DNA from: Sandaracinus amylolyticus
Lineage (GTDB): Bacteria; Myxococcota_A; Polyangia; Polyangiales; Sandaracinaceae
DNA: 64,000 nt
Direction: 5' to 3'
NCBI RefSeq assembly: GCF_000737325.1
Contig: NZ_CP011125.1
Coordinates: 8,866,001-8,930,000 of the forward strand
The position numbers and the translations under genes were made by a program. Shown piece by piece: positions 2,714 through 58,133 of the stretch (position 1 is the first letter of the stretch; every line of letters begins with the position of its first letter). The notes below the pieces were generated by a model. That model made no database searches. It was not told the origin of the DNA and saw nothing but the letters and a program-made list of their open reading frames with translations.

Positions 2714-4597
2714 ATGGCCCTCATCCCGAAGCACCCGCGCGACCCCAGCGTCTCGCTCGTCGCGTACGCGCTCGCGATCGGGGTGCCCTTCGCCGCGTAC
2801 CTCGCGACCGCATCGCCGCACGCGTACTGGCTCGACTCGGGCGAGCTCGCCGGCGCCGCCGTCGCGCTCGACATCGCGCATCCGCCCGGGCATCCGCTCG
2901 CGGCGCTCGTCGGGCACCTCTTCACCTTCGTGCCGCTCGGCCCGCTCGCGCTGCGCGTCGCGCTCGCCCAGGCGCTGTGCGGCGCGATCGCGGCGGGGTT
3001 CCTCTTCCGCGCGATCGACACGACCGTGCGCGCGATGGAGGTCCGCCACGATCGCCTGTCGATCCCGATCGCGCTCGGCGCGACGTGGAGCGTCGCGTGC
3101 TCGTACGCGTGGTGGTTCCAGTCGGTGCGCCCCGAGGTCTACGCGCTCCAGGCGCTGCTGCTCGCGATCGCGATCGAGCGCATCGTCGCGCTCGAGGCCG
3201 CGTGGCCGACCCATGACGTGCGGCCGCTCTCCGTCGCCGCGCTCGCGCTCGGCCTCGCGCTCGCGAACCACCACTTCATGGCGGTCATGGCGCTGCCCGC
3301 GATCGCGCCGACGCTCGCCCGCGTGTACCGCGCGCGCGGCGCGCGCTCGCTCGTCGTCGCGCTCGGCGCGCTCGCCGCAGGGCTCGCTGCGTACGTGTAC
3401 CTCCCGGTGCGCTCGAGCACCGATCCGCCGGTCGACCTCGGCCACCCGACCGACCTCTCGCGCTTCTTCTGGGTCGTCTCGGCGCGCGCGTACCAGCACA
3501 CGAACGTGCTCGAGGACGCGGGTCCGATCGAGCGCGCGATGGACGTGATGATCGCGATCGTCGAGACCGTGCACCCGCTGCTGCTCGTGCTCGCGCTCGC
3601 CGGGCTCTGGGCGCTGCTGCGCGCGCCGGGCGCGCGACGGCTCGGCTGGGTGTGGGCCGCGATCGTGCTGTTCGCGTGCCTCGGGCGCACCTGGCTGGGT
3701 CACACCGCGGGCAACCCCGACGCGCTCGGGTATCTCCTCCCGGCGTTCATGGGGATCGCGGCGCTCGCCGCCGCGTTCGTCGGCGCGCTGATGGCGCAGC
3801 TCGGTGGAGGGAGCGCGCGCGCCCCGCGCGCGATGCTGACGGTGCTCGCGCTCGTCACCGCGGCGCTCGGGCTCGCGCAGCTCGACCAGAGCCGCGCCCA
3901 CGCGTCGCTCGCGACGTTCCACGCGACCGACGACTTCGACGATCGCCGCATCCGCGCGCTGCCGCCGCGCGCGGTGGTGATCGCGCACCTGCCGCAGACC
4001 GTGTTCCGCCACTGGGAGCTCGCGCAGACCGAGCACGCGCGCCCCGACGTGACGCTCGTGCCGATCCCGTTCCTCGGCTACCCGGGCGTCGTCGATCATC
4101 TGGTGGAGCGCGACCCCTCGCTGCGCGAGCTGCTGAGCGGCTATCTCGTCGACGGCGAGCTGCGCCAGCCGTACCTGCAGTCGCTCGCGGCGTCGCGCCC
4201 GCTGCTGATCGAGATGGACGTGCGCGTGCCCCGCGCGCTGTACGAGACGATCGTGCCGGGCCCCGGGTTCTACGAGGTCGTCGACGGAGGCGCGACCGAC
4301 GCGGACGTGCGCGGCGGAGCGGCGCGTCGCGCGGCGTCGCTCGAGTCGCTGGCGCGAGCGCTCGGGCCGCGGCAGGACGACCCCGAGACCCGCAACCAGC
4401 TGCTCTGGGCGCACTACGTCGACGCGCTCTACTACGCGCAGGTCGGCGTGCTCGAGCGGGCGCGCGAGTCGGTGACGCGCGCCCTCGCGCTCCAGCCCGA
4501 GGCGCTCGAGCTCCGCGCGCTCTCGGAGCGCCTCGCGGGCGCGGACGGCGAGACCCCGATCGACGTGTCCGACTTCACCGTGGGCCTCCCCGAGTAG
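2714..4597 (+). CDS. DUF2723-type integral membrane protein
   Basis: A 627-aa polytopic inner-membrane protein. Its N-terminal region (DSGELAGAAVALDIAHPPGH, about residues 35-55) is the hallmark of DUF2723 (TMEM260-like) proteins, which resemble GT-C glycosyltransferases with acidic and His residues between the first helices. Many further hydrophobic segments follow to about residue 380; the last 240 residues are soluble and end in a TPR-like helical region (YYAQVGVLERARESVTRALALQPEALELR). The ATG at 2714 was chosen because it begins just before the conserved first helix; upstream in-frame sequence is the 52-bp repeat. Substrate unknown; transfer of a sugar from a lipid-linked donor is inferred from the fold family. 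Confidence 0.85.
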   Translation: MALIPKHPRDPSVSLVAYALAIGVPFAAYLATASPHAYWLDSGELAGAAVALDIAHPPGHPLAALVGHLFTFVPLGPLALRVALAQALCGAIAAGFLFRAIDTTVRAMEVRHDRLSIPIALGATWSVACSYAWWFQSVRPEVYALQALLLAIAIERIVALEAAWPTHDVRPLSVAALALGLALANHHFMAVMALPAIAPTLARVYRARGARSLVVALGALAAGLAAYVYLPVRSSTDPPVDLGHPTDLSRFFWVVSARAYQHTNVLEDAGPIERAMDVMIAIVETVHPLLLVLALAGLWALLRAPGARRLGWVWAAIVLFACLGRTWLGHTAGNPDALGYLLPAFMGIAALAAAFVGALMAQLGGGSARAPRAMLTVLALVTAALGLAQLDQSRAHASLATFHATDDFDDRRIRALPPRAVVIAHLPQTVFRHWELAQTEHARPDVTLVPIPFLGYPGVVDHLVERDPSLRELLSGYLVDGELRQPYLQSLAASRPLLIEMDVRVPRALYETIVPGPGFYEVVDGGATDADVRGGAARRAASLESLARALGPRQDDPETRNQLLWAHYVDALYYAQVGVLERARESVTRALALQPEALELRALSERLAGADGETPIDVSDFTVGLPE

Positions 4598-4666
4598 GCG
4601 CACACGCGCCCACCAAAATCGGCGGGCGGGTGATCGCTCTGTGGCATCGCGACGCACAGGGCCGAG

Positions 4667-6613
4667 GTGCAGCACCTCCGCCTCGCCCACCTCGCGCTCG
4701 CCCTGCTCACCACGCTCGCCGGCTGCGTCGGCGAGCTCTCCGAGGCACCGGGCCGGCGGACGTCGCCACCGGTCGACGGAGGTACGCCGATCCCGCCCGG
4801 CGTGGACGCGTGGGTCCCGCCCGGCGTCGACGCGTGGGTCCCGCCCGGCGTCGACGGAGGACCGCCGCCCGGTCCGATCGACTCGGGGATCGTCGTCGAT
4901 CCGCCCGACGCGTTCGTGCCCGCGCCGCTCTACCCGAGCGCGACGATCGGCACGCGCTGCAGCGAGGGCGCGGAGCGCGAATTCCTGGTGCTCTCGAGCG
5001 AGCCCGCGGACTGCATGGCGCACGCGCGCTCGTTCACGACGCCCGACGCGACGCGCTTCGTGCCGGTCCAAGTGGGCGCGGCCTCGCCGTTCACCACGAC
5101 CGCGACGATGTGCAGCGACGACGGCGCGTGCGCGCCGACGTCGATCACGGTGACGCTCACCCGCACGGCGAGCGGCGCGACGGGCGAGTGGTCGGCGACG
5201 GTGGGCGGCATCGCGCGCACGGGCCGCATCGAGGCGAGTCGCTGCGACTACGACGCGCTGCTCCCGCCCGCGGGCGAGACGCCGATCGGCGATGCCGCGC
5301 TGCGCGAGGTCGCGATCTACCAGGGCGTGAAGATCACGATCGCGCGTGAGGGCGCGGCGGTCGCGCCGAGCGCGCCGATCGTCGCCGGGCGCGACGCGCT
5401 GCTGCGCTTGTTCGTCGAGCCGCGCGCGGGCTTCGTCGCGCGCGAGGTGGTGGCGCGCGTCGAGCTCGGCGACGGCGCGCCGATCGAGGTGCGCGGGCGC
5501 ATCCAGGGCTCGTCGACCGACGCCGATCTCGCGTCGACGCTGAACGTGCGGATCCCCGGGGATCGCATCACGCCGGAGGTGCCGATCGCGGTGGGGATCT
5601 ACGACGTCGCGGCGACGTGCGGCGGCGGCGGCGCGACCGGCGGGGCGCGCTTCCCGAGCTCGGGCACCGCGACGCTCGCCGCGCGATCCAACGGCGGCAC
5701 GTTCCGCGTCGTGCTGGTGCCGGTGCGCTACGCCGCCGATGGCTCGAACCGACTGCCCGACACCAGCGCGGCGAACGTCGCCGCGTATCGCGACTTCATG
5801 CGCAGCGTCTTCCCGGTGCAGGACGTGGAGATCACGGTGCGCTCGAGCCCGCTCGTGTGGAACGGCGGGATCGGCGCCGACGGCAGCGGATGGTCGCAGC
5901 TGCTCAACGAGTGCATGAACCTGCGCCAGTCGGATCGTCCGCCCGCGGACACCTACTACTACTGCTTGTTCAGTCCGGCGTCGTCGTTCTCGCAGTTCTG
6001 CGGGCGAGGATGCGTCGCGGGCCTCGGGCCGGTGCCGTCGGTGCGCGACACGTTCTCGCGCGCGAGCATCGGGCTCGGATATCGCGGCACCGAGGACACG
6101 TTCGTGCACGAGGTCGGGCACTCGCTCGGTCGCCCGCACGCGCCGTGCGGAGGCGCCTCGGGCGCCGAAGCGTCGTACCCGTACTCCGGCGGTCGCATCG
6201 GAAGCTGGGGCTACGACCTGCTCCAGAACCAGCTGCTGAATCCGTCGCAGCACACCGACGTGATGGGCTACTGCGACAACCAGTGGATCAGCGACTACAA
6301 CTACCGGCTGGTCTTCGAGCGCATCCGCGGCGTGCGCGGCATCGCGTCGGTGTCGGGGACGCCGACGCGCTACGCGACGGTGGTCGTCGACGTCGACGGA
6401 TCGCTCTCGTGGGGCAGCGAAGTGGAGCTCGTGTTCGCGCCCGACGGCGACGCGCTCGACGCGACGTGGGCCACGACGAGCGGGGAGATCGCGGCGGACG
6501 CGACGCTGCTCCCGGTGAGCCACGTCGACGGCGGCATCGTGTACGTGCCGGTGCCGGACGCGAGCGTCACGGCGATCACGATCCCGGGCTACGGCACGCT
6601 CGCAGTGCGCTGA
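4667..6613 (+). CDS. Exported lipoprotein with zincin metalloprotease motif
   Basis: A 648-aa protein starting at GTG 4667. A short signal peptide ends in the lipobox TLAGC at about residue 19, so it is probably lipid-anchored in the envelope. A proline-rich linker carries an 8-residue repeat (VDAWVPPG, 24 bp per unit at about 4795-4860). The catalytic motif HEVGHSLGRPH lies near residue 480 and matches HExxHxxGxxH of metzincin-type zinc proteases, with a Met (DVMGYC) about 45 residues later as expected for a Met-turn. Several Cys residues around it could form disulfides. The region before it resembles beta-sandwich modules. Substrate unknown; protease activity is a motif-based inference. Confidence 0.85.
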   Translation: MQHLRLAHLALALLTTLAGCVGELSEAPGRRTSPPVDGGTPIPPGVDAWVPPGVDAWVPPGVDGGPPPGPIDSGIVVDPPDAFVPAPLYPSATIGTRCSEGAEREFLVLSSEPADCMAHARSFTTPDATRFVPVQVGAASPFTTTATMCSDDGACAPTSITVTLTRTASGATGEWSATVGGIARTGRIEASRCDYDALLPPAGETPIGDAALREVAIYQGVKITIAREGAAVAPSAPIVAGRDALLRLFVEPRAGFVAREVVARVELGDGAPIEVRGRIQGSSTDADLASTLNVRIPGDRITPEVPIAVGIYDVAATCGGGGATGGARFPSSGTATLAARSNGGTFRVVLVPVRYAADGSNRLPDTSAANVAAYRDFMRSVFPVQDVEITVRSSPLVWNGGIGADGSGWSQLLNECMNLRQSDRPPADTYYYCLFSPASSFSQFCGRGCVAGLGPVPSVRDTFSRASIGLGYRGTEDTFVHEVGHSLGRPHAPCGGASGAEASYPYSGGRIGSWGYDLLQNQLLNPSQHTDVMGYCDNQWISDYNYRLVFERIRGVRGIASVSGTPTRYATVVVDVDGSLSWGSEVELVFAPDGDALDATWATTSGEIAADATLLPVSHVDGGIVYVPVPDASVTAITIPGYGTLAVR

Positions 6614-39132: not shown

Positions 39133-39978
39133 TCACGACGTGAACGGACCGTCGCCGTTCATCGGACCGGGCGTCGGGATCGGCGTCACCGGCGTCTCGG
39201 GCTCGGTCGGGTCGGTGGGCTCCACCACGACCTCGTTGCGGCTGCCGCGACGGCGGCCCGACCAGAGCGAGGGCGCGATCGTGTCCGCGTCTTCGTCCCA
39301 CCACCGCACGTACGTGATCATGCGGCGGACCTCGCCGTAGGTGCTCACGAGCAAGCTGATCGCGCGCGTGCGCAGCTCCGCCGCGGGGAGACGCGTCGAG
39401 CCCTGCTCGCGCTCGTCGAGGCGCTGCAGGAGCAGCTCCGCCTTCTTCTCGACGCGATCGAGATCCTCGCGGGTGAGCGGCGTCTTGTTGCGCACCGCGC
39501 TCCAGTGCTCGCGGAAGAGCGAGACGATCACCAGCGTGCTGGTGGCGACGGTGCGATAGCCCTGCACCGGGCGGCCCGTCTCGACGCGGCTGCGATCGAG
39601 CAGCTTGCGGTTCGCGAGCGCCTCCGCGTCGGTGAACACGAGCTTGTGCTCCTCGGCGACGTCCGCCGCCATGTCGGCGAGATCGCTCATCGCGTCGGAC
39701 GCGGTGAGCTCGACGTTCGCCTGCAGCGTCGCGCGCGCGACGATCGGGAGATCGTCGAGGAACCCGGCGCCTTCGCGGCCGAACTGCGCGGCGATGGCAT
39801 CGCGGTGCTGCGCGATGCGCGGAAGGCTGCCGATGACGACGCCGGCCGCGGTCGCGGCGTCGAGGCGGTGGGTGCGGAAGATCTCCGGCTCCGGCATGCG
39901 CTCGAGCAAGTCGCGCTTGCTGTCGAGCGCGGCCTTGAGGCTCGGCGCGTCGGGGTGGCTGTCGGGACGAACGGGCAC
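39133..39978 (-). CDS. Conserved hypothetical protein, 281 aa
   Basis: From GTG 39978, with AAGGAG seven bases upstream. A mostly helical protein: KRDLLERMPEPEIFRTHRLD, AATAAGVVIGSLPRIAQHRD, ADMAADVAEEHKLVFTDAEA, VSLFREHWSAVRNKTPLTRE, DRVEKKAELLLQRLDERE, and a Pro-rich tail with TDPTEPETPVTPIPTPGP. No signal peptide or membrane helix is certain. The family is unfamiliar to me. It lies just upstream of the toxin island on the same strand, behind a good terminator for the operon before it. Confidence 0.82.
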   Translation of the reverse strand: MPVRPDSHPDAPSLKAALDSKRDLLERMPEPEIFRTHRLDAATAAGVVIGSLPRIAQHRDAIAAQFGREGAGFLDDLPIVARATLQANVELTASDAMSDLADMAADVAEEHKLVFTDAEALANRKLLDRSRVETGRPVQGYRTVATSTLVIVSLFREHWSAVRNKTPLTREDLDRVEKKAELLLQRLDEREQGSTRLPAAELRTRAISLLVSTYGEVRRMITYVRWWDEDADTIAPSLWSGRRRGSRNEVVVEPTDPTEPETPVTPIPTPGPMNGDGPFTS

Positions 39979-40063
39979 GGTGTCGCTCCTTCTCGCGCGA
40001 GTGGTTTCGTGCGCGAATGCCCGGTCATCGGCGTGGGCTTCGGAGCGTTGCGTGCGCTGATCG

Positions 40064-40094
40064 GAAAAAAGGCGAGCGGAGCAGGGTCTCGCCT
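40064..40094 (-). terminator. Rho-independent terminator on the reverse strand
   Basis: On the reverse strand AGGCGAG (40094-40088) pairs with CTCGCCT (40076-40070) around an 11-nt loop and is followed at once by a run of T (TTTTTT). It lies beyond the Cys-rich operon and the palindrome array and before the 281-aa gene. It is the only classic GC-stem plus T-run seen in the window. Confidence 0.75.
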
Positions 40095-40136
40095 GTCCTT
40101 CCGCCGTGAGCGGCCTCGGACGGCTGGAGCGCTCCG

Positions 40137-40405
40137 CCGAATCTCCGACATTCGCTCGGCGATTCTAGAATCGACCGGCGAATCTCCGAGATTCACCCCC
40201 TGGATTTCGAATCCACCCGGCGAATCTCCGACATTCGCTCGGCGATTCCAGAATCGATCGGCGAATCTCCGAGATTCACCCTCTGGATTTTGAATCCACC
40301 CGGCGAATCTCCGAGATTCGGTCGGCGATTCTAGAATCGACCGGCGAATCTCCGAGATTCACCCTCTGGATTTCGAATCCACCCGGCGAATCTCCGAGAT
40401 TCCCG
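40137..40405. repeat. 83-bp tandem array of nested palindromes
   Basis: Three full units and part of a fourth; the motif GAATCTCCGA starts units at 40139, 40222, 40305 and 40388, exactly 83 bases apart. Each unit holds two copies of GGCGAATCTCCGA[G/C]ATTC (itself a 7-bp inverted repeat around one base), the 14-bp palindrome CGATTCTAGAATCG, and TGGATTTCGAATCCA (6-bp arms). Every half-element ends in GATTC or GAATC. Substitutions such as TCTAGA to TCCAGA occur. It lies between a stop-proximal hairpin repeat and the terminator. Function unknown. Confidence 0.9.
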
Positions 40406-40466
40406 ACACGCGAACGAGCGCGGCACGCAGACGCGCGCCGCGCTCGTTCTCGAGATCAGCTGCCGA

Positions 40467-40544
40467 AAATCGGCTCGCCCCCCAGTCCCTTCCGTCCGCG
40501 CGCTTCGCGCGCTCCCGTCCGGGACCGGCGGGACGAGCACTCCG
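40467..40544 (-). repeat. Stop-proximal hairpin repeat, copy 2
   Basis: Reverse-strand copy of the element after clpB: GGAGTGCTCGTCCCGCCGG begins six bases after the stop of the 945-aa Cys-rich gene (40550) and ends GAGCCGATTTT. The inner GCGCGC hairpin and the left outer arm are intact; the right outer arm has changed, partly to pairs that could wobble. Confidence 0.8.
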
Positions 40545-40549
40545 GCAGC

Positions 40550-43387
40550 TCAGTACATGCAGCAGCGGAAGCCCGTGGTGGGCGCGCGGAACGTGCGCTG
40601 CGCGACCGTGAAGTCGAAGTCGCAGGTACGTCCTTCTTCGATGCTCTGGTACGAGCCGCCGCGCACCTGGTAGAGCGGCACGCCGCCCGAGGTGCCCGCC
40701 GACGTCGAGGTCCACTCGCGGACGTTGCCGCTCATGTCGTAGACGCGGCCGGCTGCGGCCCAGTCGGTGTAGCAGGACGAGAACGTCGGCGAGCCGGTCG
40801 TCGCGAGCGCGTCCTGATCGCCCGCGAGGCTCGTGTTGCTGTCGTACTCCATGCCGTTGCACGCGACGGGCTGCGTCGCGCTGCACGTCGCGGCGTACGA
40901 CCAGTCACAGCTGCCCGCGGGGCCCTCGCACGCGGTCTCCCAGTCCTCCGCGCCGCAGAGGTGCCAGCCGCTCGTCGGCGAGGTGCACGTGCCGCTCGCG
41001 TTGAGCGCGCAGCACGCGGCCTCGGCCTCGGCCCAGGTCACGCTCGTCCACGGGCGCACGTTGGGCGCCGAGCACGCGAGCGTGCTCAGCGAGCCCGCGC
41101 TCGTCGACGTCGCGTCGGGACGCGACGCCTCGTAGCGCATCACGCGGATCGTGCGGCCGCCGCTCGTGTACGTGACGGTCGGGATCGCGCTCGCGTCGAT
41201 CGCGTCGCGCCACGGCGTGCCGGGATCGTTGACGCCGGTCTCGTCGACCTCGCCGTCGCAGTCGTCATCGGCGCCGTTGCACGACTCGTCGCCGGGGGTG
41301 CCCGCCGCCGCCGCGTTGCACTGCACCGCGGTGCCCGACGCCGCGCAGACGTAGGTGCCGACGCGACGGCAGGTGCCGCTGCCGTTGCTGCACTGATCGC
41401 CGACGAGCGGGAACGCCTCGTCGATGCTGCCGTCGCAGTCGTTGTCGAGCGAGTCGCAGCGCTGCTCGGTCTGCTGGTAGGTCGCCGGATAGACGCACTC
41501 CCAGCCGCGCGCGCCGCCGCAGGTCGCCGCGGTGCCGTTGCAGACGCCGTTCGGGTTGCAGAACGCCGAGGGCGCGGTGAGGCCTTCGTCGGTGCGGCCG
41601 TCGCAGTCGTCGTCGCGGCCGTTGCACGCCTCGTTGCCGGCGAACGAGCACGCGTACTCGCAGCCGGGGCGCGTCGGATCGAGATCGACGAAGCCCGGGC
41701 GGCACGCCGCGATCGCGCAGGTGCCCGCGTTGCAGCGCGGGGTCGCGTTCGGGAACGAGCACACGCGGCCGCACGCGCCGCAGTTGTTGATGTCGGTCAT
41801 GAGGGCGAAGCCCTCGTCGGTCATCGCGTCGCAGTCGTCGTTCGTGCCGTTGCAGAGCTCGACGGTCGGGCCGATCGCGCCCTCGCAGGTGAGCGTGCCG
41901 CCGCGGCACTGGACGGTGCCCGCTTCGCACGCGCCCGCGGTCTCGCCGCACGCCGCGCCGCCGCCGGGGTTGCCCTCGTCGACGTTCGAGTCGCAGTCCT
42001 GATCGACGCCGTCGCAGGTCTCGGTGGTCGCGGTGATCGCGCCCTCGCAGACGAGCGAGCCGCTGCGGCAGTGCTGCACGCCCGGCGCGCAGCGACCGAC
42101 GTCGCTGCCGCAGAGCTGGCCGCCCTCGGGATCGCCCTCGTCGACGTTGCCGTCGCAGTCGTCGTCGACGTTGTTGCAGAGCTCGGGGCTCGGCCCGACG
42201 CCGCCCGTGCACACGAGCGCGCCGCGCGTGCAGGTCACGACGCCCGCTTCGCACGCGCCGGCGGTCGGGCCGCACGCGGCGCCGCCGCCGGGGTTGCCGT
42301 CGTCGACGGCGCCGTCGCAGTCGTCGTCGATGGTGTTGCAGATCTCGGCGGTCGCCTCGACCTGGCCCATGCACACGAGCGCGCCGCCGACGCACTGCTG
42401 GGTGCCGACCTCGCACGCGCCGGTGCTGATGCCGCACACGCGGCCGCCCTCGGGGTTGTTCTCGTCGACGCGCCCGTCGCAGTCGTCGTCGACCGTGTTG
42501 CAGGTCTCGGCCGCCGGCGCGGGCTCGCCGGTGCAGACGATCTCGCCCGCGCGGCAGATCGTGACGCCCGCCGCCGCGCCGCACGCGCCGACGTCGCTGC
42601 CGCACGCCACGCCCGCGCCGGGCTCGCCGTCGTCGACGGTCCCGTCGCAGTCGTCGTCGAGGAGGTTGCAGACCTCGACCGGCGGATCGGCCGGCGTGCA
42701 CTGGTACTCGCAGCCGTTCGTCGCGCTGCCGTCGATGTCGTAGTAGCCGGGGTCGCAGGCGCCGAGCGTGCACACGCCCGCGCTGCACGAGCCGGCCGCG
42801 CGCGACCCACGACAGTGGTTGCCGCAACGACCGGCGCCCGAGCTGGTGAACCCGCAGTTCTCGGGGTCGTTCGCGAAGTCGATGTCCTCGTCGATCGCGC
42901 CGTCGCAGTCGTCGTCGTTGAAGTCGCAGATCTCGTCGGTCCCGTCGGTGACCGTCGGGATGCAGTAGTACTCGCAGCCCGGCTGCGCGGGATCGAGGTC
43001 GAGGTAGCCGACGTCGCACGCGCCGATGCTGCACTCGCCCGCCTCGCACACCGCGAACGCGTGCGGGTAGACGGGGCACGGCATGTCGCAGCCGCCGCAG
43101 TGGTCGGGGTTCGACTCGGTGTCGATCCCCTCGTCGGTGTGGCCGTCGCAGTCGTCGTCGCGCTCGTTGCAGAGCTCGAAGTCGATGCACGCGCCGTCGG
43201 GCACGACGATCACGTCGGCCGACGCATCGCGCGGCGCGACGCGCGCGTCGCTGCCGGCGTCGGTCCCGCCGTCGAGCGGCTCACCGCCGTCGACGTCGGG
43301 ACAGACCAGGCAGTACGGCTCGACGGTGCACGAGGAGAGGACGACGAGGAGCGCCAACCGCTGCGCGCTGGAGACGAAGCGGCTCAT
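40550..43387 (-). CDS. MopE-like Cys-rich lipoprotein with C-terminal FGE/sulfatase-modifying-type domain
   Basis: A 945-aa protein from ATG 43387, overlapping the upstream stop as ATGA. The signal peptide ends in the lipobox LSSC. A DGG/DAG linker is followed by about 12 repeats built on CNxxDDDCDGxxDE with spacing of 50-60 residues, a motif known from the surface protein MopE and proposed to bind metal. The last 230 residues resemble a formylglycine-generating-enzyme-like fold: VTWAEAEAACCALN, GWHLCGAEDWETAC, YDMSGNVREW, VRGGSYQ and FRCCMY. Such domains often act as binding modules without oxidase activity. Second gene of a two-gene operon. Confidence 0.92.
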   Translation of the reverse strand: MSRFVSSAQRLALLVVLSSCTVEPYCLVCPDVDGGEPLDGGTDAGSDARVAPRDASADVIVVPDGACIDFELCNERDDDCDGHTDEGIDTESNPDHCGGCDMPCPVYPHAFAVCEAGECSIGACDVGYLDLDPAQPGCEYYCIPTVTDGTDEICDFNDDDCDGAIDEDIDFANDPENCGFTSSGAGRCGNHCRGSRAAGSCSAGVCTLGACDPGYYDIDGSATNGCEYQCTPADPPVEVCNLLDDDCDGTVDDGEPGAGVACGSDVGACGAAAGVTICRAGEIVCTGEPAPAAETCNTVDDDCDGRVDENNPEGGRVCGISTGACEVGTQQCVGGALVCMGQVEATAEICNTIDDDCDGAVDDGNPGGGAACGPTAGACEAGVVTCTRGALVCTGGVGPSPELCNNVDDDCDGNVDEGDPEGGQLCGSDVGRCAPGVQHCRSGSLVCEGAITATTETCDGVDQDCDSNVDEGNPGGGAACGETAGACEAGTVQCRGGTLTCEGAIGPTVELCNGTNDDCDAMTDEGFALMTDINNCGACGRVCSFPNATPRCNAGTCAIAACRPGFVDLDPTRPGCEYACSFAGNEACNGRDDDCDGRTDEGLTAPSAFCNPNGVCNGTAATCGGARGWECVYPATYQQTEQRCDSLDNDCDGSIDEAFPLVGDQCSNGSGTCRRVGTYVCAASGTAVQCNAAAAGTPGDESCNGADDDCDGEVDETGVNDPGTPWRDAIDASAIPTVTYTSGGRTIRVMRYEASRPDATSTSAGSLSTLACSAPNVRPWTSVTWAEAEAACCALNASGTCTSPTSGWHLCGAEDWETACEGPAGSCDWSYAATCSATQPVACNGMEYDSNTSLAGDQDALATTGSPTFSSCYTDWAAAGRVYDMSGNVREWTSTSAGTSGGVPLYQVRGGSYQSIEEGRTCDFDFTVAQRTFRAPTTGFRCCMY

Positions 43388-46300
43388 CGGACCCTCCGGC
43401 GCGCGACGAGGACGAGACCGAGCGCGGCGAGCATCGCCATCGCCCACGGAGCACGCGAGCTCTCACCGGTGCCCGCCGCGGTGCAGAGGCAGCCGCCGCC
43501 GCCCGCCGCGAGCACGCGGACCGTTCCGTCACCGCCGTCGGGGCCGGCGTCGACGTCCGAGCCTCCGTCGTCGAGCGGCGGACCTCCGTCGAGGCGCGGC
43601 ACCACGACGAGCTCGCACTCGCCGCCGCTGCAGCGCTGGCCTTCGGGGCACTGCAGGTCGAGGCAGCGATCACGACGGCACAGGCCCGTGAGCGGATCGC
43701 AGACGTCGCCGCTCGAGCAGACCACGTCGCCGCACAGGTTCGTGGTGCACTCGCCGGTCGTCGGATCGCAGACCCGCTCGCCGCCGCACGAGACGTCGGC
43801 GCACGGGTTCACGAGGCACTCGCCGCTCGTACAGCGCTCGCCGTCCTCGCAGCTCACCTCGGCGCAGCTCGTCTCGCAGACGCCGGCGCGGCACGCCTGC
43901 TCGGCGGTGCATCCGGCGGTCGCGCACGGGTCCGGCACGCAGACCGGATCGGGCGCGGTGCGATCGCAGATCTCGCCCGCAGGGCACGGGAAGCTGCGGC
44001 AGTCGTCGACCTGACAGGTGCCGGAGAAGGGCTCGCAGCGCAGGCCCTCGGCCGAGCAGTCGACGTCCTCGCACGCGTAGGTGCAGCGGTTGTTGTGGCA
44101 CGCGCACGACGGGATGCCCTCGGCCTCCATGCCGGGCGCGCAGAAGACCTCGTCGCCGTCCATCACGGTCTCGCCGGCGCACGCGGTGTCGTCGCACCGC
44201 GGCGCGACGCAGAAGCACATGCCTTCGTCGTTCGTCTGCGGGACGCGGCCCGCGGGGCAGCGCGCGAACTCGCTGTCGGCGCAGGGCAGCGCGCACGCGC
44301 AGTCGACGCACGCGCTGCCCGGCGGGCAGAGCGTTCCGTCGGGGTCCTCGTCGACCATCATGTCGCAGTCGTCGTCGTCGCAGTCGCAGACCTCGCGACC
44401 GCGCGGCGTGCCGCCGGTACAGACCTGACGGCCACCGATGCACGTGAGCGTGCCCGGCTCGCAGACGCCCTCGGTCTCACCGCACACCGCCGAGGGCACC
44501 TCTTCGTCGATGCGCGTGTCGCAGTCGTCGTCGAGGTTGTTGCAGCTCTCGTTGATCGGGCCGTTGCCGCCCTCGCAGACGATCTCGCCGCCGACGCAGG
44601 TCAGGCGCCCCGGCGTGCACTCGCCCGTCCCCTCGCCGCACGGCGCGCCCACCGAGAGGCCGTCGTCGACGACGCCGTCGCAGTCGTCGTCGAGGTCGTT
44701 GCAGACCTCCTCGACCGGGCCCCGCCCGCCGCTGCACACGAGCGTCCCGCCCTGGCACATCGTCGTGCCCGCGGTGCACTCGCCGGTGTCGTCGCCGCAG
44801 GCCGCGCCGCCGCCGGGGTTGCCCTCGTCGACGCTGCCGTTGCAGTCGTTGTCGAGGCCGTCGCAGCGCTCGGGCTGCGGGCCGCTCTCGCCCACGCACA
44901 CCAGCGCGCCGCCGACGCAGACCTCGGTGCCGCGCTCGCACTCGCCGGCATCGCTGCCGCCGCACTCCGCGCCGCCGCCGGGGTTGCCCTCGTCGACGAG
45001 GTTGTCGCAGTCGTCGTCGATCGTGTTGCAGCTCTCGGTCGCGGGACCGGTGCCGCCGGTGCAGACGATCGCGCCGCCCGTGCACTGCGTCCTGCCGGGC
45101 TCGCACGCGCCGGTCGACGTGCCGCACGTCACGCCGCCGCCGGGGTTGCCCTCGTCGATGCGGGTGTCGCAGTCGTCGTCGGCGCCGTTGCAGATCTCGG
45201 TGCCGGGCGCGCGATCGCCGGTGCACGTCATCGTGCCGCCGACGCAGCGCATGAGGCCCGCGCCGCAGGCGCCGCACGACGCGCCGGTCGGGAGCTCCTC
45301 GTCGACGCGGCCGTCGCAGTCGTCGTCCTGGTTGTCGCAGGTCTCGGGCGTCGGGCCGGTGCCGCCGCTGCACACGAGCGCGCCCGCGACGCAGCTCAGC
45401 GCGCCGGGGTTGCACTCGCCGAGCGCGGTGCCGCACGCGCCGCCGCCGCCGGGGTTGCCGTCGTCGACCACGCCGTCGCAGTCGTCGTCGAGCGTGTTGC
45501 AGATCTCGGGCGACGCGCCGACCGCGCCGACGCAGGCGCCCCACACCGACGCGGTGCAGGTCTCGGTGCCGGGGCGGCACACGCCGACGCTGGTGCCGCA
45601 CGGACGCGTGAGGCCGTCGATCACGCCGTCGCAGTCGTTGTCGACGTTGTCGCAGGTCTCGGTGGCGGGGCCGGTGCCGCTGCACGTGCCCCAGGCGCCC
45701 GCGGTGCAGACCTCCTGGCCGACCGTGCACGCGCCGACGTCGGTGCCGCAGACGCGCGCGAGGCCCTCGTCGGTGCGGCCGTCGCAGTCGTTGTCGACGT
45801 CGTCGCAGAGCTCCGCCTCGGGGCGGCAGCCCGCGCAGACGTTGTTCTCGTCGGCGACGCCGTCGCAGTCGTCGTCGACGCCGTTGCAGACCTCGGGCGG
45901 CTCCGCGCCGCACGCGCCGCAGCGGTTGCGCAGGCCCTCGTCGATGCGGCCGTCGCAGTTGTCGTCGACGCCGTTGCACTGCGTCTCGCCGGGATCGGTG
46001 CAGAGCGTCGGCGACGTCACGCCGCCGGGGCGGTTGCAGTAGAGGACGAAGCCTTCGTCGACGAGCGTGTCGCAGTCGTCGTCGCCGCCGTTGCAGAGCT
46101 CGGTGCGGATCGAGCCGTTGACGATGTCGGCGATCGCCGCGCTGAGCGCCGCCGAGTCGTCGACGAAGATCGCGCTGCCCGTGCCGCCGTTGCTGGCGAT
46201 CGCGTTCAGCTGCGCGCTCGCGTCGGGGCTGTTCGCGAAGCCGATGACGTTGACGGGGAAGCCCGCGGTGCGGAGGTCGGTCGCGGCGTCGATCGGATCG

Positions 46301-49300
46301 CCGCCGCAGGTCTCGGCGCCGTCGGTCAGCAGGATGACCTCGTAGGGGCGGCACGAGCTGCGCGGATCGTCGGTGCGGACGTCCGCGAGGTACGCCTGCG
46401 CCGACGCGAGCGAGCCCGCGAGCGGCGTGGTGCCCGAGCCGCGCAGCTCGAGGTCGAGCCCCGCGGGCGCGGTGCCGCCGTAGTTGTCGCTGCCGTCGAG
46501 CCACTCGAGGATCGAGTACTCGTTCTCCGGCGAGAACCCGACGAGCAGATCGCCCGCCGCGTACTCGCCGCACACCGCGCCCGAGCCCGCCCAGCCGCCG
46601 GACGCCGCGGTCGCGTTCGCCGAGGGGCACGCGAAGCTCGTCGCGCGCTGGCGGAAGCGCATGAGGCCCATCTCGACGTCGCCGAACGCCGCGACGACGT
46701 CGCTCACGCCGGCGCGCGCACGCGCGATGCGCGAGTCGTCGGCGATGCCGTTGCCGCACCCCGACGCGCCGCAGGTCGCGCACGCGACGTCGCCGCCGAG
46801 GCACTCGCCCGAGCCGTCGCCCCCGGTGAACTGATCCGCGCAGGTGTGCCAGTTCATCGAGCCCGACGTGTCGAACACGAGCAGGATGCGCGGGCGCACG
46901 TCGCCCGGCGCGTAGACGAACGGGCCCTCGCTCGTGTCGTTCGCCGAGTGGCAGCCCTCGTCGTTCGTCGCGCCGAGGCCGAAGTCGATCCGGCCGTCGC
47001 CGTCGTTGTCGAGACCGTCGCTGCACGCGCGGCGCGTCACCTCGTCGCGATCGCTCGAGCTCGAGCAGTCGGGATCGGCGGGATAGTCCACGCGCCCGTC
47101 GCCGTCGTCGTCGACGCCGTTGCTGCACGCGGGCGCGCCGCCCTCGGTGCCGTCGTCGGGGCCGTTGCACTCGGGGTCGGCGGGGAAGTCGACGCGCCCG
47201 TCGCCGTCGTTGTCGACGCCGTCGGAGCACTGCACGTCGCGCTCGTCGTTGTCGCCGGGGCCCGAGCAGCCCGAGTCACCGGGGAAGTCGACGTCGCCGT
47301 CGCCGTCGTTGTCGAGGCCGTCGCTGCAGCCCGGCACGTGCGTGACGAAGCAGGGCTCGCTCGGGAGCGAGACGAGCTCGCCCGGTGCCTGCGCGGTCGC
47401 GGTGACCTCGAGGCCGCCGTAGAGCGCGCCGAACGTCGAGCCGGGCCCGAACGTGCCCACGTCCCACGCGCCGCCCGCGGTCGAGGCGTCGCTGCCGCGC
47501 TCGATGTTGTTGAAGAAGACGCGCACCACCGTGCTCGCGTTGCTCTCGGTGTGCGTGCCGACGATCGTCGTCGCGCTCGAGAGCACGCGCGAGCAGTCGA
47601 TCACGGGACGATCGCTGCGCGGCTGTCCGATCGGCACGCGCACCGCCGTCGGGAAGAACGCCTCGAACGAGCCACCGTAGTTGCTCGCCGACCAGAAGAG
47701 CTTGAAGTCGAGGTCGTAGAGACCGGCGGCCGTGCCCGCGGGCGCGCGCAGCGTGACCGAGATCGGGGTGCTCGTCGGCGTCGTGATGCTCGTGCGCGGT
47801 CCGAGCGACGTCGTGCCCAGCGTCGGGCCCGAGACGACGGTCCAGCCCGCGGGCAGGAGCATCTGCGCGGGATCGAGCGACGCCGCCTGCGTGCCCCAGT
47901 TCTGCAGCGTGCCGCTGAGCACGACGTTGCTGCCCGCGGCCTGCGCGGTGAGCGGCTGGGTGAACGACGCGCGCAGCACCGGCGTCGGGCGGCTCAGCGT
48001 GACCGCCTGCGTGGTGAATCCCGGCGCGGGCAGCTGGGTCGACGTGTAATTCGCGTACGAGACGAGCGAGATCTGGCCGGTGCCGCTCACGTCGTACTGG
48101 AACGTGAACGTGTACTCCTCGCCGGGATCGAGCGTGCCGAGCACCCAGCGCAAGCACGGGCGGGTGCCGCACATCGCGGAGCTCGGCGCGCCGGTCGCGC
48201 TGCCCGGCACGAGCGCGCCGCGGCTGCTGTCGTAGTCGGCGGTCACCACGACGTTCGTCTGCGGCAACGTCGACAGGTTCATGCCGTGCAGCGTGTAGGT
48301 GATGCGCTCGCCGTTGTCGGTGAGCATCCGGTCCGGCGTGAGGTCGAACTGGTTGTTCAGGAACACGCAGCCCGGCGACGGGATCACGAAGCCCCACGGG
48401 TTGTCCTGGCCCGCGTTGCTGCTCGAGGGACCGCCGCCGAAGCTCTCGGCGCAGTTCGCGTCGCGCATCATCACCGGGTCGAGCGGCGTGTCGATCACGC
48501 GCAGCGCGATCTCGAGGATGCCCGCCTCACCCGCGCGCAGCTCGCCGATCGCGGCGCGCACCGCGTTCGTCGCGGCGGGCAGCGGGTTCGCGGGGCGCAC
48601 GTCGAAGCCGGTCGCCGACGCGTCGATGCTGCGGCGCGTGTCGGAGGCCGTGTACGTCGCCGTCGTGCCGGTGCCGATCCGCGCGCCCGCGTAGCGGATG
48701 CGCTGCCACGGGCCGACGACGTGGTTGAACACGACGTCGGTCGGCGGGTCGGCGCCGCCGACGCTGAGATCGGTGGCTTCGTAGAGGTAGTGGGTCTGCG
48801 GCCCCGCGACGGGCGAGCCGTACTGGAACGGCGTGTCGCCGTTGCCCTGGTTGCCGCTGCGGTTGCCGTCGCTGTTCGCGATGCCGAACGCGTAGACCTG
48901 ATCGACGTCCCACGGCGTGTGCCCGAAGAACGTCGTGACGCCGTCGAGGCCGAGGATCGGCGAGATGCTCGCGGCGAACGTCGGAGGCCGGCCCGCCATC
49001 GACTGGCCGTTGAAGTACGTGAGGAACGCGTTCGCCGGCGTGCGCTGGGTGCGCGCGTCGGTCGAATAGAAGAAGCCGGTGTCTCCGTAGAGCTGCGAGA
49101 GCGCGCCTTCGGGCACGCTGCGCGTTCCGCCGCTGCAGCCCGCGCCCCCGGTGCACGGCAGCGTGTAGGTGCCGCAGCTGCCGCCGCTCGTGCAGCGGTC
49201 GAGCGCCAGGCCCGGGTGGTTCGGCGCGATGGTGCGCCCGCCGGGATAGGCCGTCAGCGTCGTCGGATCGATCAGGCGGACGCCGACCACCTCGGTGTTC

Positions 49301-49620
49301 GGCGGGACGAACTCCGTGATGTACGCGTTGATGCCGCGCGCGACGCGGTCCGGCATCCCGAAGTAGTTGATGCGGAACAGGATCACGTCGCCGGGCGCGA
49401 TCCGGACGTCGGTCCCGGTGCTGGCTCCGCTCGACGTGCCCGACTCCGGGTCGATCACGGCGACGGTCGACTCGGGAATCGACTTCGAGACCATCAGCGC
49501 GGCGATGCCCTCGCCGTAGGCATGCCCGACGTGCATCAAGCAGATGCTGAACGTCGCGACGGCTGCGGCCCCTCGGGCCCATCCTCGGAATCTGGCTCCG
49601 CTCTCGTTCCGTACGCCCAT
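43384..49620 (-). CDS. Giant Cys-rich surface protein with VWA domain, MopE-like repeats and MYXO-CTERM
   Basis: A 2078-aa exported protein from ATG 49620. After the signal peptide, about 700 residues of beta-rich sequence (including TDYDSSRG-type and CARDB-like LSGTLQNWGTQAASLDPAQM segments) lead to EF-hand-like DGLDNDGDGDVDFPGD repeats (about 770-890), probably binding calcium. A von Willebrand A domain follows with MIDAS motif DTSGSMN (about 915) and LLTDGAETCG. Then come about 14 CNxxDDDCDGxxDE repeats, Cys-rich EGF-like knots (CRAGVCETSC), a DDGGSDVDAG linker and a MYXO-CTERM tail (GCLCTA, helix, ARRRVR). Likely an adhesive cell-surface protein anchored by the sorting system. Confidence 0.92.
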   Translation of the reverse strand: MGVRNESGARFRGWARGAAAVATFSICLMHVGHAYGEGIAALMVSKSIPESTVAVIDPESGTSSGASTGTDVRIAPGDVILFRINYFGMPDRVARGINAYITEFVPPNTEVVGVRLIDPTTLTAYPGGRTIAPNHPGLALDRCTSGGSCGTYTLPCTGGAGCSGGTRSVPEGALSQLYGDTGFFYSTDARTQRTPANAFLTYFNGQSMAGRPPTFAASISPILGLDGVTTFFGHTPWDVDQVYAFGIANSDGNRSGNQGNGDTPFQYGSPVAGPQTHYLYEATDLSVGGADPPTDVVFNHVVGPWQRIRYAGARIGTGTTATYTASDTRRSIDASATGFDVRPANPLPAATNAVRAAIGELRAGEAGILEIALRVIDTPLDPVMMRDANCAESFGGGPSSSNAGQDNPWGFVIPSPGCVFLNNQFDLTPDRMLTDNGERITYTLHGMNLSTLPQTNVVVTADYDSSRGALVPGSATGAPSSAMCGTRPCLRWVLGTLDPGEEYTFTFQYDVSGTGQISLVSYANYTSTQLPAPGFTTQAVTLSRPTPVLRASFTQPLTAQAAGSNVVLSGTLQNWGTQAASLDPAQMLLPAGWTVVSGPTLGTTSLGPRTSITTPTSTPISVTLRAPAGTAAGLYDLDFKLFWSASNYGGSFEAFFPTAVRVPIGQPRSDRPVIDCSRVLSSATTIVGTHTESNASTVVRVFFNNIERGSDASTAGGAWDVGTFGPGSTFGALYGGLEVTATAQAPGELVSLPSEPCFVTHVPGCSDGLDNDGDGDVDFPGDSGCSGPGDNDERDVQCSDGVDNDGDGRVDFPADPECNGPDDGTEGGAPACSNGVDDDGDGRVDYPADPDCSSSSDRDEVTRRACSDGLDNDGDGRIDFGLGATNDEGCHSANDTSEGPFVYAPGDVRPRILLVFDTSGSMNWHTCADQFTGGDGSGECLGGDVACATCGASGCGNGIADDSRIARARAGVSDVVAAFGDVEMGLMRFRQRATSFACPSANATAASGGWAGSGAVCGEYAAGDLLVGFSPENEYSILEWLDGSDNYGGTAPAGLDLELRGSGTTPLAGSLASAQAYLADVRTDDPRSSCRPYEVILLTDGAETCGGDPIDAATDLRTAGFPVNVIGFANSPDASAQLNAIASNGGTGSAIFVDDSAALSAAIADIVNGSIRTELCNGGDDDCDTLVDEGFVLYCNRPGGVTSPTLCTDPGETQCNGVDDNCDGRIDEGLRNRCGACGAEPPEVCNGVDDDCDGVADENNVCAGCRPEAELCDDVDNDCDGRTDEGLARVCGTDVGACTVGQEVCTAGAWGTCSGTGPATETCDNVDNDCDGVIDGLTRPCGTSVGVCRPGTETCTASVWGACVGAVGASPEICNTLDDDCDGVVDDGNPGGGGACGTALGECNPGALSCVAGALVCSGGTGPTPETCDNQDDDCDGRVDEELPTGASCGACGAGLMRCVGGTMTCTGDRAPGTEICNGADDDCDTRIDEGNPGGGVTCGTSTGACEPGRTQCTGGAIVCTGGTGPATESCNTIDDDCDNLVDEGNPGGGAECGGSDAGECERGTEVCVGGALVCVGESGPQPERCDGLDNDCNGSVDEGNPGGGAACGDDTGECTAGTTMCQGGTLVCSGGRGPVEEVCNDLDDDCDGVVDDGLSVGAPCGEGTGECTPGRLTCVGGEIVCEGGNGPINESCNNLDDDCDTRIDEEVPSAVCGETEGVCEPGTLTCIGGRQVCTGGTPRGREVCDCDDDDCDMMVDEDPDGTLCPPGSACVDCACALPCADSEFARCPAGRVPQTNDEGMCFCVAPRCDDTACAGETVMDGDEVFCAPGMEAEGIPSCACHNNRCTYACEDVDCSAEGLRCEPFSGTCQVDDCRSFPCPAGEICDRTAPDPVCVPDPCATAGCTAEQACRAGVCETSCAEVSCEDGERCTSGECLVNPCADVSCGGERVCDPTTGECTTNLCGDVVCSSGDVCDPLTGLCRRDRCLDLQCPEGQRCSGGECELVVVPRLDGGPPLDDGGSDVDAGPDGGDGTVRVLAAGGGGCLCTAAGTGESSRAPWAMAMLAALGLVLVARRRVR

Positions 49621-50080
49621 CGCGTTCTCCCGCTCGGCCCCCCGCCGAGGTGAAAAGAAGGGATGCGCCGGTCGATGGCCGCGAAGGTTTTCGCCTTCAC
49701 ACCGGGCGTACTTTTTTCACGAGCATGGAAGCGCGAACAGATCACGCCCTCAGCTCGCGGCGACCATCCCGTCGACATCACGACGGAATGGGACAGCGCG
49801 CGACACCCCCACCACCCCAACGACTCCCCCGAGTCGCGATCGAGAGTGCACGAAAAATTCGCAGCGCGGCAGACCACGCGGAGGCGTCGCCCCGCGCAGA
49901 CCGCCGCGAGCGCGGGCCCCGAATCGCGAATGAGGCGCACGCCCGGCGGCGGGGCTAGAGCGCGGAGATCACACGCGTTCTGGCGTCCCGCGGGCGGACG
50001 ACCCCGAGGGCTCTCCGCCGTCCCGCGGGACGGGCATGGAGATCCCTCGTCTCGATTCGGCGTCGCGCGGGGCCGGCAAC
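49621..50080. other. Upstream region of the giant-protein operon
   Basis: No gene recognised. It includes an A/T-richer segment (about 49700-49730, TACTTTTTTCACGAGC) unusual for this DNA, where a promoter for the reverse operon may lie, though no clear boxes could be fixed. A 14-bp perfect palindrome CGTCCCGCGGGACG sits at 50019-50032. Confidence 0.45.
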
Positions 50081-50320
50081 AAATCGGCTCGCTCGCCGAC
50101 CCCTACCGTCCGCGCGCTTCGCGCGCTCCCGTCCGGCGCCGGCGAACGAGCACTCCCGCAACCAAATCGGCTCGCACGCCGACCCCTACCGTCCGCGCGC
50201 TTCGCGCGCTCCCGTCCGGGCCGGCGAACGAGCACTCCCGCAACCAAATCGGCTCGCACGCCGACCCCTACCGTCCGCGCGCTTCGCGCGCTCCCGTCCG
50301 GGCCGGCGAACGAGCACTCC
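50081..50320 (-). repeat. Stop-proximal hairpin repeat, three tandem copies (after glgC)
   Basis: Three copies start (in plus coordinates) with AAATCGGCTCGC at 50081, 50164 and 50246, periods 83 and 82. In gene orientation the first begins GGAGTGCTCGT nine bases after the glgC stop. Each has the GCGCGC hairpin with a short loop. The left arm is TTCGCCGG instead of CCCGCCGG, with parallel changes on the right arm, which suggests partial covariation. Confidence 0.88.
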
Positions 50321-57707: not shown

Positions 57708-57881
57708 CTCGCGGCTCGTCCGACGTCGCCGATCGCGGTTCAATCCCGGTATGCGCTCCCCCGCTCGCGGATCATCGCACGAGCGATGGGCGCTCTCGCA
57801 AGGGCGTCGTCGCCCGGACTGCGCGAGCGTGCGGCGATCGAGCATCCGGCGACCATTCACCCAGCGAGCGTCATCGGCGCC

Positions 57882-58133
57882 GGCGATACCTCGACCCATC
57901 CGCCATCGAGCTGGATTGCGGGCGGCGATACCTCGACCCATCCGCCGTCGAGCTGGATTGCGCTCGGCGATGCCTCGACCCATCCGCCGTCGAGCTGGAT
58001 TGCGCTCGGCGATGCCTCGACCCATCCGCCATCGAGCTGGATTGCGCTCGGCGATGCCTCGACCCATCCGCCATCGAGCTGGATTGCGCTCGACGATACC
58101 TCGACCCATCCGCCATCGAGCTCGAGCTTCCCG
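57882..58133. repeat. 42-bp tandem repeat, six copies
   Basis: Units start at 57882, 57924, 57966, 58008, 58050 and 58092, with near-identical GGCGATGCCTCGACCCATCC plus GCC[A/G]TCGAGCTGGATTGCG. The unit is 14 codons long and open in several frames, but none continues into a credible gene: the SnoaL-like gene stops at 58146 and the Nudix gene starts at 57707. No gene was seen in the 174 bases between the repeats and the Nudix start. Confidence 0.9.

Follow-up and report, generated by a model that had tools for sequence, protein, structure and literature searches.

Palindrome arrays with a 41- to 43-bp period accompany a fast-diverging helical protein family in Polyangiales and may be its cognate binding sites

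Upstream of a minus-strand gene of the myxobacterium Sandaracinus amylolyticus (genome of 10,327,335 bases, one contig) lies a compact array of short palindromes. The locus raises the question of whether the array is read as DNA by a protein, acts as a structured RNA or a recombination site, or is a repeat that multiplies on its own account. We analysed it within a stretch of 64,000 nucleotides, hereafter the window, and compared it with loci in related genomes. In the literature covered (titles and abstract openings, with few subscription papers) we found no account of such arrays or of the protein family described below, and the part seen of the 2016 Sandaracinus amylolyticus genome paper (PMC5010890) mentions repeats only for CRISPR and insertion-element finding. 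The features of the window that bear on the question are the following:

40134-40404 (palindromes 40139-40402), no strand: home array of 13 palindromes, basic unit 41/42 bp, super-period 83 bp.
40139, 40180, 40222, 40263, 40305, 40346 and 40388, 15 bp each: seven copies of the core palindrome B1, GAATCTCCGA(G/C)ATTC.
40160-40381, no strand: whole span of the interleaved second palindromes.
40160, 40243 and 40326: three copies of the interleaved palindrome CGATTC(T/C)AGAATCG.
40201, 40284 and 40367: three copies of the interleaved palindrome TGGATTT(C/T)GAATCCA.
40409-40452, no strand: GC-rich hairpin with 20-nt arms, present at the same position in the sister species.
39979-40133, minus strand: leader between array and gene, candidate promoter and 5' leader.
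40063-40072, 40047-40053 and 40018-40031: leader motifs, respectively a CCTTTTTTCC stretch, ACGCAAC and CCGATGACCGGGCA.
39133-39978, minus strand: gene of the array-linked family, 281 aa, GTG start as called.
57877-58122, no strand: second intergenic array, 42-bp period, six nearly identical units.

The conserved core of the window array is GAATCTCSGAGATTC, a constant element that alternates with a second palindrome every 41/42 bp. The 12 centre-to-centre distances read 20.5, 20.5, 21 and 21, three times over, so that the 83-bp period is the sum of 41 and 42. The palindromes and the 83-bp period of the preliminary description are thus present at 40139-40402, the period as a super-period and the basic unit being the 41/42-bp alternation of core and second palindrome. 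The fixed order of three palindromes holds in the window array and is absent from some sister arrays. Two other points need correction: the difference between CGAGA and CGACA, taken for a variation of the centre, sits in an arm and disrupts one base pair, and the hairpin repeat and terminator said to enclose the array both lie on its right side, where the hairpin at 40409-40452 is followed by a hairpin repeat at about 40457-40550. The left edge is formed by the leader of the gene at 39133-39978, and the hairpin at 40409-40452 is probably the end signal of the gene at 40550-43387. The leader motifs recur in sister loci, as judged by eye, and the recurring leader is possibly an unusual promoter or an RNA leader. 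Leaders of home loci (window 39979-40133, L159 and L167) carry, in this order, a T-rich stretch, ACGCAAC, and CCGATGA or CCGACAA with GGG.

The repeats after glgC, whose periods of 83 and 82 bases had been noted as a possible coincidence, indeed resemble the array by coincidence, since they belong to a separate dispersed hairpin family with 75 genome matches. This dispersed hairpin element, 80-90 bp long and often tandem, occurs in the window at 40457-40550 and 50076-50320; the copy beside the array is absent at the same position of the sister species, has AGCTG on both its sides here, and looks like an insertion. The adjoining region (40550-49536) holds two long genes with ~162-bp tandem repeats, the first of which (40550-43387) encodes MopE-like metal-binding motifs and a sulfatase-modifying-factor-like domain.

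A search of the genome and of relatives for the unit, as the preliminary description had proposed, recovered four further B1 arrays here and two in G002, the sister species; a search of the other congener, G001, for B1 arrays gave none. With up to two mismatches, B1 has 73 placements genome-wide, of which 69 fall in five clusters (at 2.51, 3.26, 3.61, 4.17 and 8.91 Mb) and 4 are isolated, with two mismatches each; every placement with 0-1 mismatch lies inside the five clusters. The reversed B1 pattern, serving as control, gave 0 matches in the genome versus 73 for the real pattern, and the window array is therefore not a product of chance. A search with the second palindrome (A) revealed four arrays with a different core, B2, and a paired-A pattern, with any period of 38-44 bp permitted, had 11 matches in one species and 16 in the other, all 27 with a period of exactly 41 or 42. 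Across the B1, B2 and B4 arrays measured, adjacent cores are separated by 40 (2 steps), 41 (56), 42 (55), 43 (12), 83 (3) or 85 bp (1), i.e. 125 of 129 steps measure 40-43 bp and the remaining four 83-85 bp. The B4 units number 74 in this spacing count and 75 in the arm-pair count given below, which had a looser mismatch limit.

Because B1 and B2 were seen both at home loci and dispersed, other home cores were predicted to have dispersed arrays, and B4 (GATGGGTCSGACCCATC), the home core of L151, agreed with this prediction. Of its 51 forward placements genome-wide, at least 50 fall in four clusters, namely a home array of 11 cores and dispersed arrays of 17, 9 and 13; in the sister species B4 forms a decayed home array (7) and two dispersed arrays of 8 cores each, besides two isolated placements. 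For B6 the control pattern matched about as often as the real one, and only its 42-bp clusters were therefore counted, in addition to the home array. Each of the four core types thus has one home array and two to four dispersed, gene-less arrays (B1 1+4, B2 1+3, B4 1+3, B6 1+2). The second array of the window (57877-58122) has six cores GAT(A/G)CCTCGACCCATC, which look like a decayed B4 form whose left arm is disrupted. When 54 stretches were submitted to an automatic dyad test, 23 gave p <= 0.05; the test misplaced the window array and took in one stretch outside the class, and was accordingly given no weight.

At the dispersed loci examined, which did not include L258, neither the family gene nor the ATPase gene described below was present within about 3 kb. 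Convergent genes flank seven of the 12 dispersed arrays of this genome (the convergence of L041 being taken from its orthologue L064), compared with 18 of 81 in a baseline of intergenic gaps of 100 bp or more, which itself includes these loci (p 0.007, in a comparison chosen post hoc). This argues for the marking of sites over the control of promoters.

For three dispersed arrays the sister species has an orthologue (L041/L064, L251/L114 and L253/L256); there the main flanking matches are mostly 89-95% identical. Within these arrays the identity between species is 1.00, 0.984 and 0.987 for the cores and 0.67, 0.52 and 0.61 for the spacers, respectively, and copy number differs (7/6, 18/8 and 13/8). 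The earlier suggestion that the arms are under constraint agrees with these figures: random arm decay in these close relatives was looked for and not seen (cores 0.984-1.00, spacers 0.52-0.67). In addition, 901 arm-pair cells contained 40 one-sided changes and 0 two-sided, i.e. compensatory, ones. What is kept is therefore the sequence and not the pairing, which favours recognition as DNA.

At the position of the window array itself, however, the sister species has an array of another core type, with a flank ~92% identical as far as the edge of the array. The sister species also has a short decayed remnant of B1 (L117, 4602-4660). This remnant lies ~1.2 kb from an array with a different core and adjoins the orthologue of the window gene 40550-43387; it hints at replacement or rearrangement between array types.

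The preliminary description omitted the link between the array and the neighbouring gene family. Proteins of this family have ~280 aa and an all-helical model. Searches of Pfam, NCBIfam, PADLOC, PHROGs and PDB with the product of 39133-39978 gave no convincing match. The structural model of this product, built on an alignment of three sequences, is weak (pLDDT 68.9, pTM 0.39), and Foldseek with this model returned no match at E <= 0.001. No DNA-binding domain was recognised in the helical protein, which is acidic on average (median net charge -6.5, n=50). Relatives of the window gene occur in five of eight genomes of the taxonomic family, and a profile search of 80 genomes from the order Polyangiales, hand-picked from 290 listed, detected the protein family in 41, with up to 16 matches per genome.

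The palindromes of the upstream arrays differ between paralogues, the period remains 41-43 bp, and the array is almost always 5' of the gene; in L137/L139, a distant orthologous pair, it lies 3'. When upstream regions were scanned for the best lag between 30 and 59 with a threshold of 0.6 identity, 34 of 50 loci, a set that includes four orthologous pairs and is not independent, showed a strong tandem repeat, and its period was 41-43 bp in 33 of these 34. The 16 loci below the threshold include that of the window itself, which scores 0.56 because its array units alternate. Among background segments, the same scan was passed by none of 53 in unrelated loci, by one of 756 in ATPase relatives without the gene, and by one of 71 in the window, this one being the second array at 57877-58122. 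The 50 loci comprise 21 of 30 from a first search (L125, L136, L137, L139, L142, L143, L144, L146 and L150 being partial, cluster-internal or distant) and 29 of 30 from the profile search (L286 being cut by a contig end). Array similarity tracks protein identity (Mantel r 0.19, p 0.001), a correlation that shared ancestry alone could yield, and several proteins 62-77% identical have unrelated arrays. The nearest sister-species relative of the window gene is 81% identical and frameshifted, and its array has another core; despite this frameshift, the sister species keeps B1 arrays elsewhere.

A second gene, for a HerA/FtsK-superfamily ATPase of ~460 aa, follows the family gene in 10 of 20 extended loci, and also in L076 and L116. 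Its product has a Walker A motif VGMTGSGKTGL with an invariant GKT and matches Pfam HerA_C (1.7e-8) and DUF87 (3.8e-8), both above cut-offs, as well as HerA chains in PDB, placing it in the HerA/FtsK superfamily. The two proteins diverge at different rates, the ATPases being 68-78% identical to the first sequence and the helical proteins 24-60% identical to the window protein. In the gene cluster L164 a single ATPase follows three consecutive paralogues, and the window gene 39133-39978 has no ATPase gene beside it. ATPase and adjoining family gene also occur together in Polyangiaceae and in deltaproteobacterial MAGs (L172, L175 and L178); larger HerA-like proteins of Chloroflexi, Acidimicrobiia, Planctomycetes and others come without the family gene. 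In L171 (about 4520-5990), the place between an array of 42-bp period and a HerA-type ATPase is taken by another small, helical-looking protein, as though the reader had been swapped.

A paralogue locus thus consists of an upstream array of 41-43 bp period, a conserved leader, a fast-diverging helical protein and often a slowly diverging ATPase, and the window array is best read as the home array of one of the several paralogues that make up this system in Polyangiales. We lean, if only slightly, towards the view that the arrays are the cognate protein-binding sites of a previously unnamed system, acting like a centromere or an operator array. Among the three guesses originally offered for the array, this agrees with a protein-binding array, the cores being kept base for base in a relative; a structured RNA fits poorly with the uncompensated arm changes, and nothing points to a recombination site.

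Should the array be transcribed, its RNA could work as a series of hairpins or associate with the protein, an arrangement known from type III toxin-antitoxin systems (ToxIN), in which an RNA repeat array stands ahead of an endoribonuclease gene. The parts of the ToxIN reports seen describe a combination of tandem RNA repeats with a toxic endoribonuclease (PMC8860590, PMC5086642). On both strands the array indeed folds far better than shuffled sequences, with z of -11.2 and -10.2. It also lies ahead of the gene, varies together with it, and resembles ToxIN, as those reports present it, in pairing a tandem repeat array with a protein gene. However, good folding on both strands is expected of any palindrome array, the arm changes counted above are one-sided throughout, Rfam gave no match to the array, and the dispersed arrays lack an adjacent partner gene and in this genome mostly lie between convergent genes. 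The protein differs as well, being a ~280-aa helical protein without a match to known toxin families and accompanied by gene-less dispersed arrays, and we consider an RNA role very unlikely. A type III toxin-antitoxin system proper was rejected, with no ToxN-like endoribonuclease in Pfam, NCBIfam or PADLOC searches and 0 compensatory changes in the 901 cells. A CRISPR array was likewise rejected, the spacers being common to the units and no cas gene being present among the few flanking proteins searched.

Plain operator arrays, with the protein as a transcription regulator, the dispersed arrays as its regulon and the ATPase as an incidental neighbour, would account for the array upstream of its own gene and for the three of 12 dispersed arrays in the genome that lie between divergent genes. 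Against this stand the share of convergent settings relative to the baseline, the 7 to 18 sites per array, which are many for a simple operator, and the strong conservation of the ATPase adjoining the family gene, so that this explanation appears unlikely. Selfish or neutral repeats are also conceivable. REP and BIME elements are alternating palindromes found in intergenic gaps as scattered copies, and the present arrays, too, alternate palindromes between genes; they might grow by tandem duplication and be copied into such gaps without any dedicated protein. Consistent with this, copy number varies between the species, the units of one array are alike, the arrays are intergenic, and the core type has been replaced at one orthologous position. 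However, each type comprises only a few arrays, which are linked to a gene family, and the cores were not found as scattered single copies. REP/BIME-like dispersal was rejected on this ground, as B1 placements with 0-1 mismatch are confined to five clusters and at least 50 of 51 B4 placements to four. Moreover, three dispersed arrays occupy matching positions in the two species, their cores conserved and their spacers altered, and period and gene linkage are conserved across genera, which leaves self-propagating repeats quite unlikely.

The preferred reading, cognate protein-binding sites, recalls several known systems. Partition cassettes (ParABS; type II parC-ParR-ParM; type III tubC-TubR-TubZ) likewise combine an upstream array, a fast-diverging small protein and a conserved NTPase; each cassette has its own sites, and in some chromosomal systems the sites are dispersed. 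In the loci described here a repeat array lies beside the operon (41-43 bp in 33 of the 34 strong repeats), its binding being predicted. In contrast to partition cassettes, the NTPase is of HerA/FtsK type (Pfam HerA_C and DUF87, PDB HerA chains) and not ParA, actin or tubulin, and a ParA-, ParM- or TubZ-type NTPase was not found; the helical protein, moreover, has no recognised HTH or RHH domain. An origin from a plasmid cassette or a phage was rejected: among 72,556 plasmid records no relative of the helical protein or of the ATPase was found at the thresholds used, and phage records, searched with the ATPase only, gave no match. In Streptomyces conjugation, TraB itself binds short direct repeats, and clt-like sites occur on the chromosome. 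TraB-clt thus shares with the present loci a HerA/FtsK-superfamily ATPase, a repeat locus and related chromosomal sites, and differs in that here the sites are dyads of 15-17 bp with a separate diversified protein; a TraB model matched the ATPase weakly (NCBIfam, E 0.0089). SpdA2 of plasmid pIJ101 is, according to the abstract of its report, a DNA-binding protein that recognises a conserved palindrome (sps) and affects segregational stability (PMC4170104), and it is similar in this recognition, which for our protein is presumed. There, however, the palindrome lies within the coding region of a plasmid gene, and the abstract describes neither an array nor a chromosomal family. TdtA of Thermus thermophilus differs in that its gene belongs to an integrative element that also encodes a nuclease and a restriction enzyme, again with no site arrays in the abstract (PMC5365140).

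How would such a system work? The helical protein is the likeliest reader of the core palindromes, since it is the sole shared part that diverges along with the cores. Alone or in a complex, it would recognise its own core palindrome as a dimer and, because the site centres are two turns apart, the dimers would be aligned on one face of the DNA helix. At the home array it may regulate the operon that encodes it; at dispersed arrays of the same core type it may mark private chromosomal addresses. The ATPase would then be the motor acting on these marked addresses, as the motor of a centromere-binding protein does, although we consider such a motor-linked address system less likely than not. A bolder version, which we put forward tentatively and regard as doubtful, is that chromosomes of Polyangiales bear several mutually orthogonal site-marking systems, each with a palindromic code, a reader and a HerA-type motor. 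These would anchor, move or export the marked chromosomal regions, as a segregation or DNA-transfer machinery unlike ParABS, and new codes would arise repeatedly through co-divergence of protein and array.

If this is true, the arrays and their proteins would constitute a protein-DNA recognition system with many natural code pairs, in which the palindrome-reading residues could be deduced by comparing paralogues and orthologous pairs. It would provide a function for a family that is absent from the searched family libraries and of which some large myxobacterial genomes have as many as 16 copies, and would tie a HerA-type motor to dedicated chromosomal sites. The organisation, segregation or exchange of DNA in myxobacterial genomes of 10-16 Mb would thereby become directly testable.
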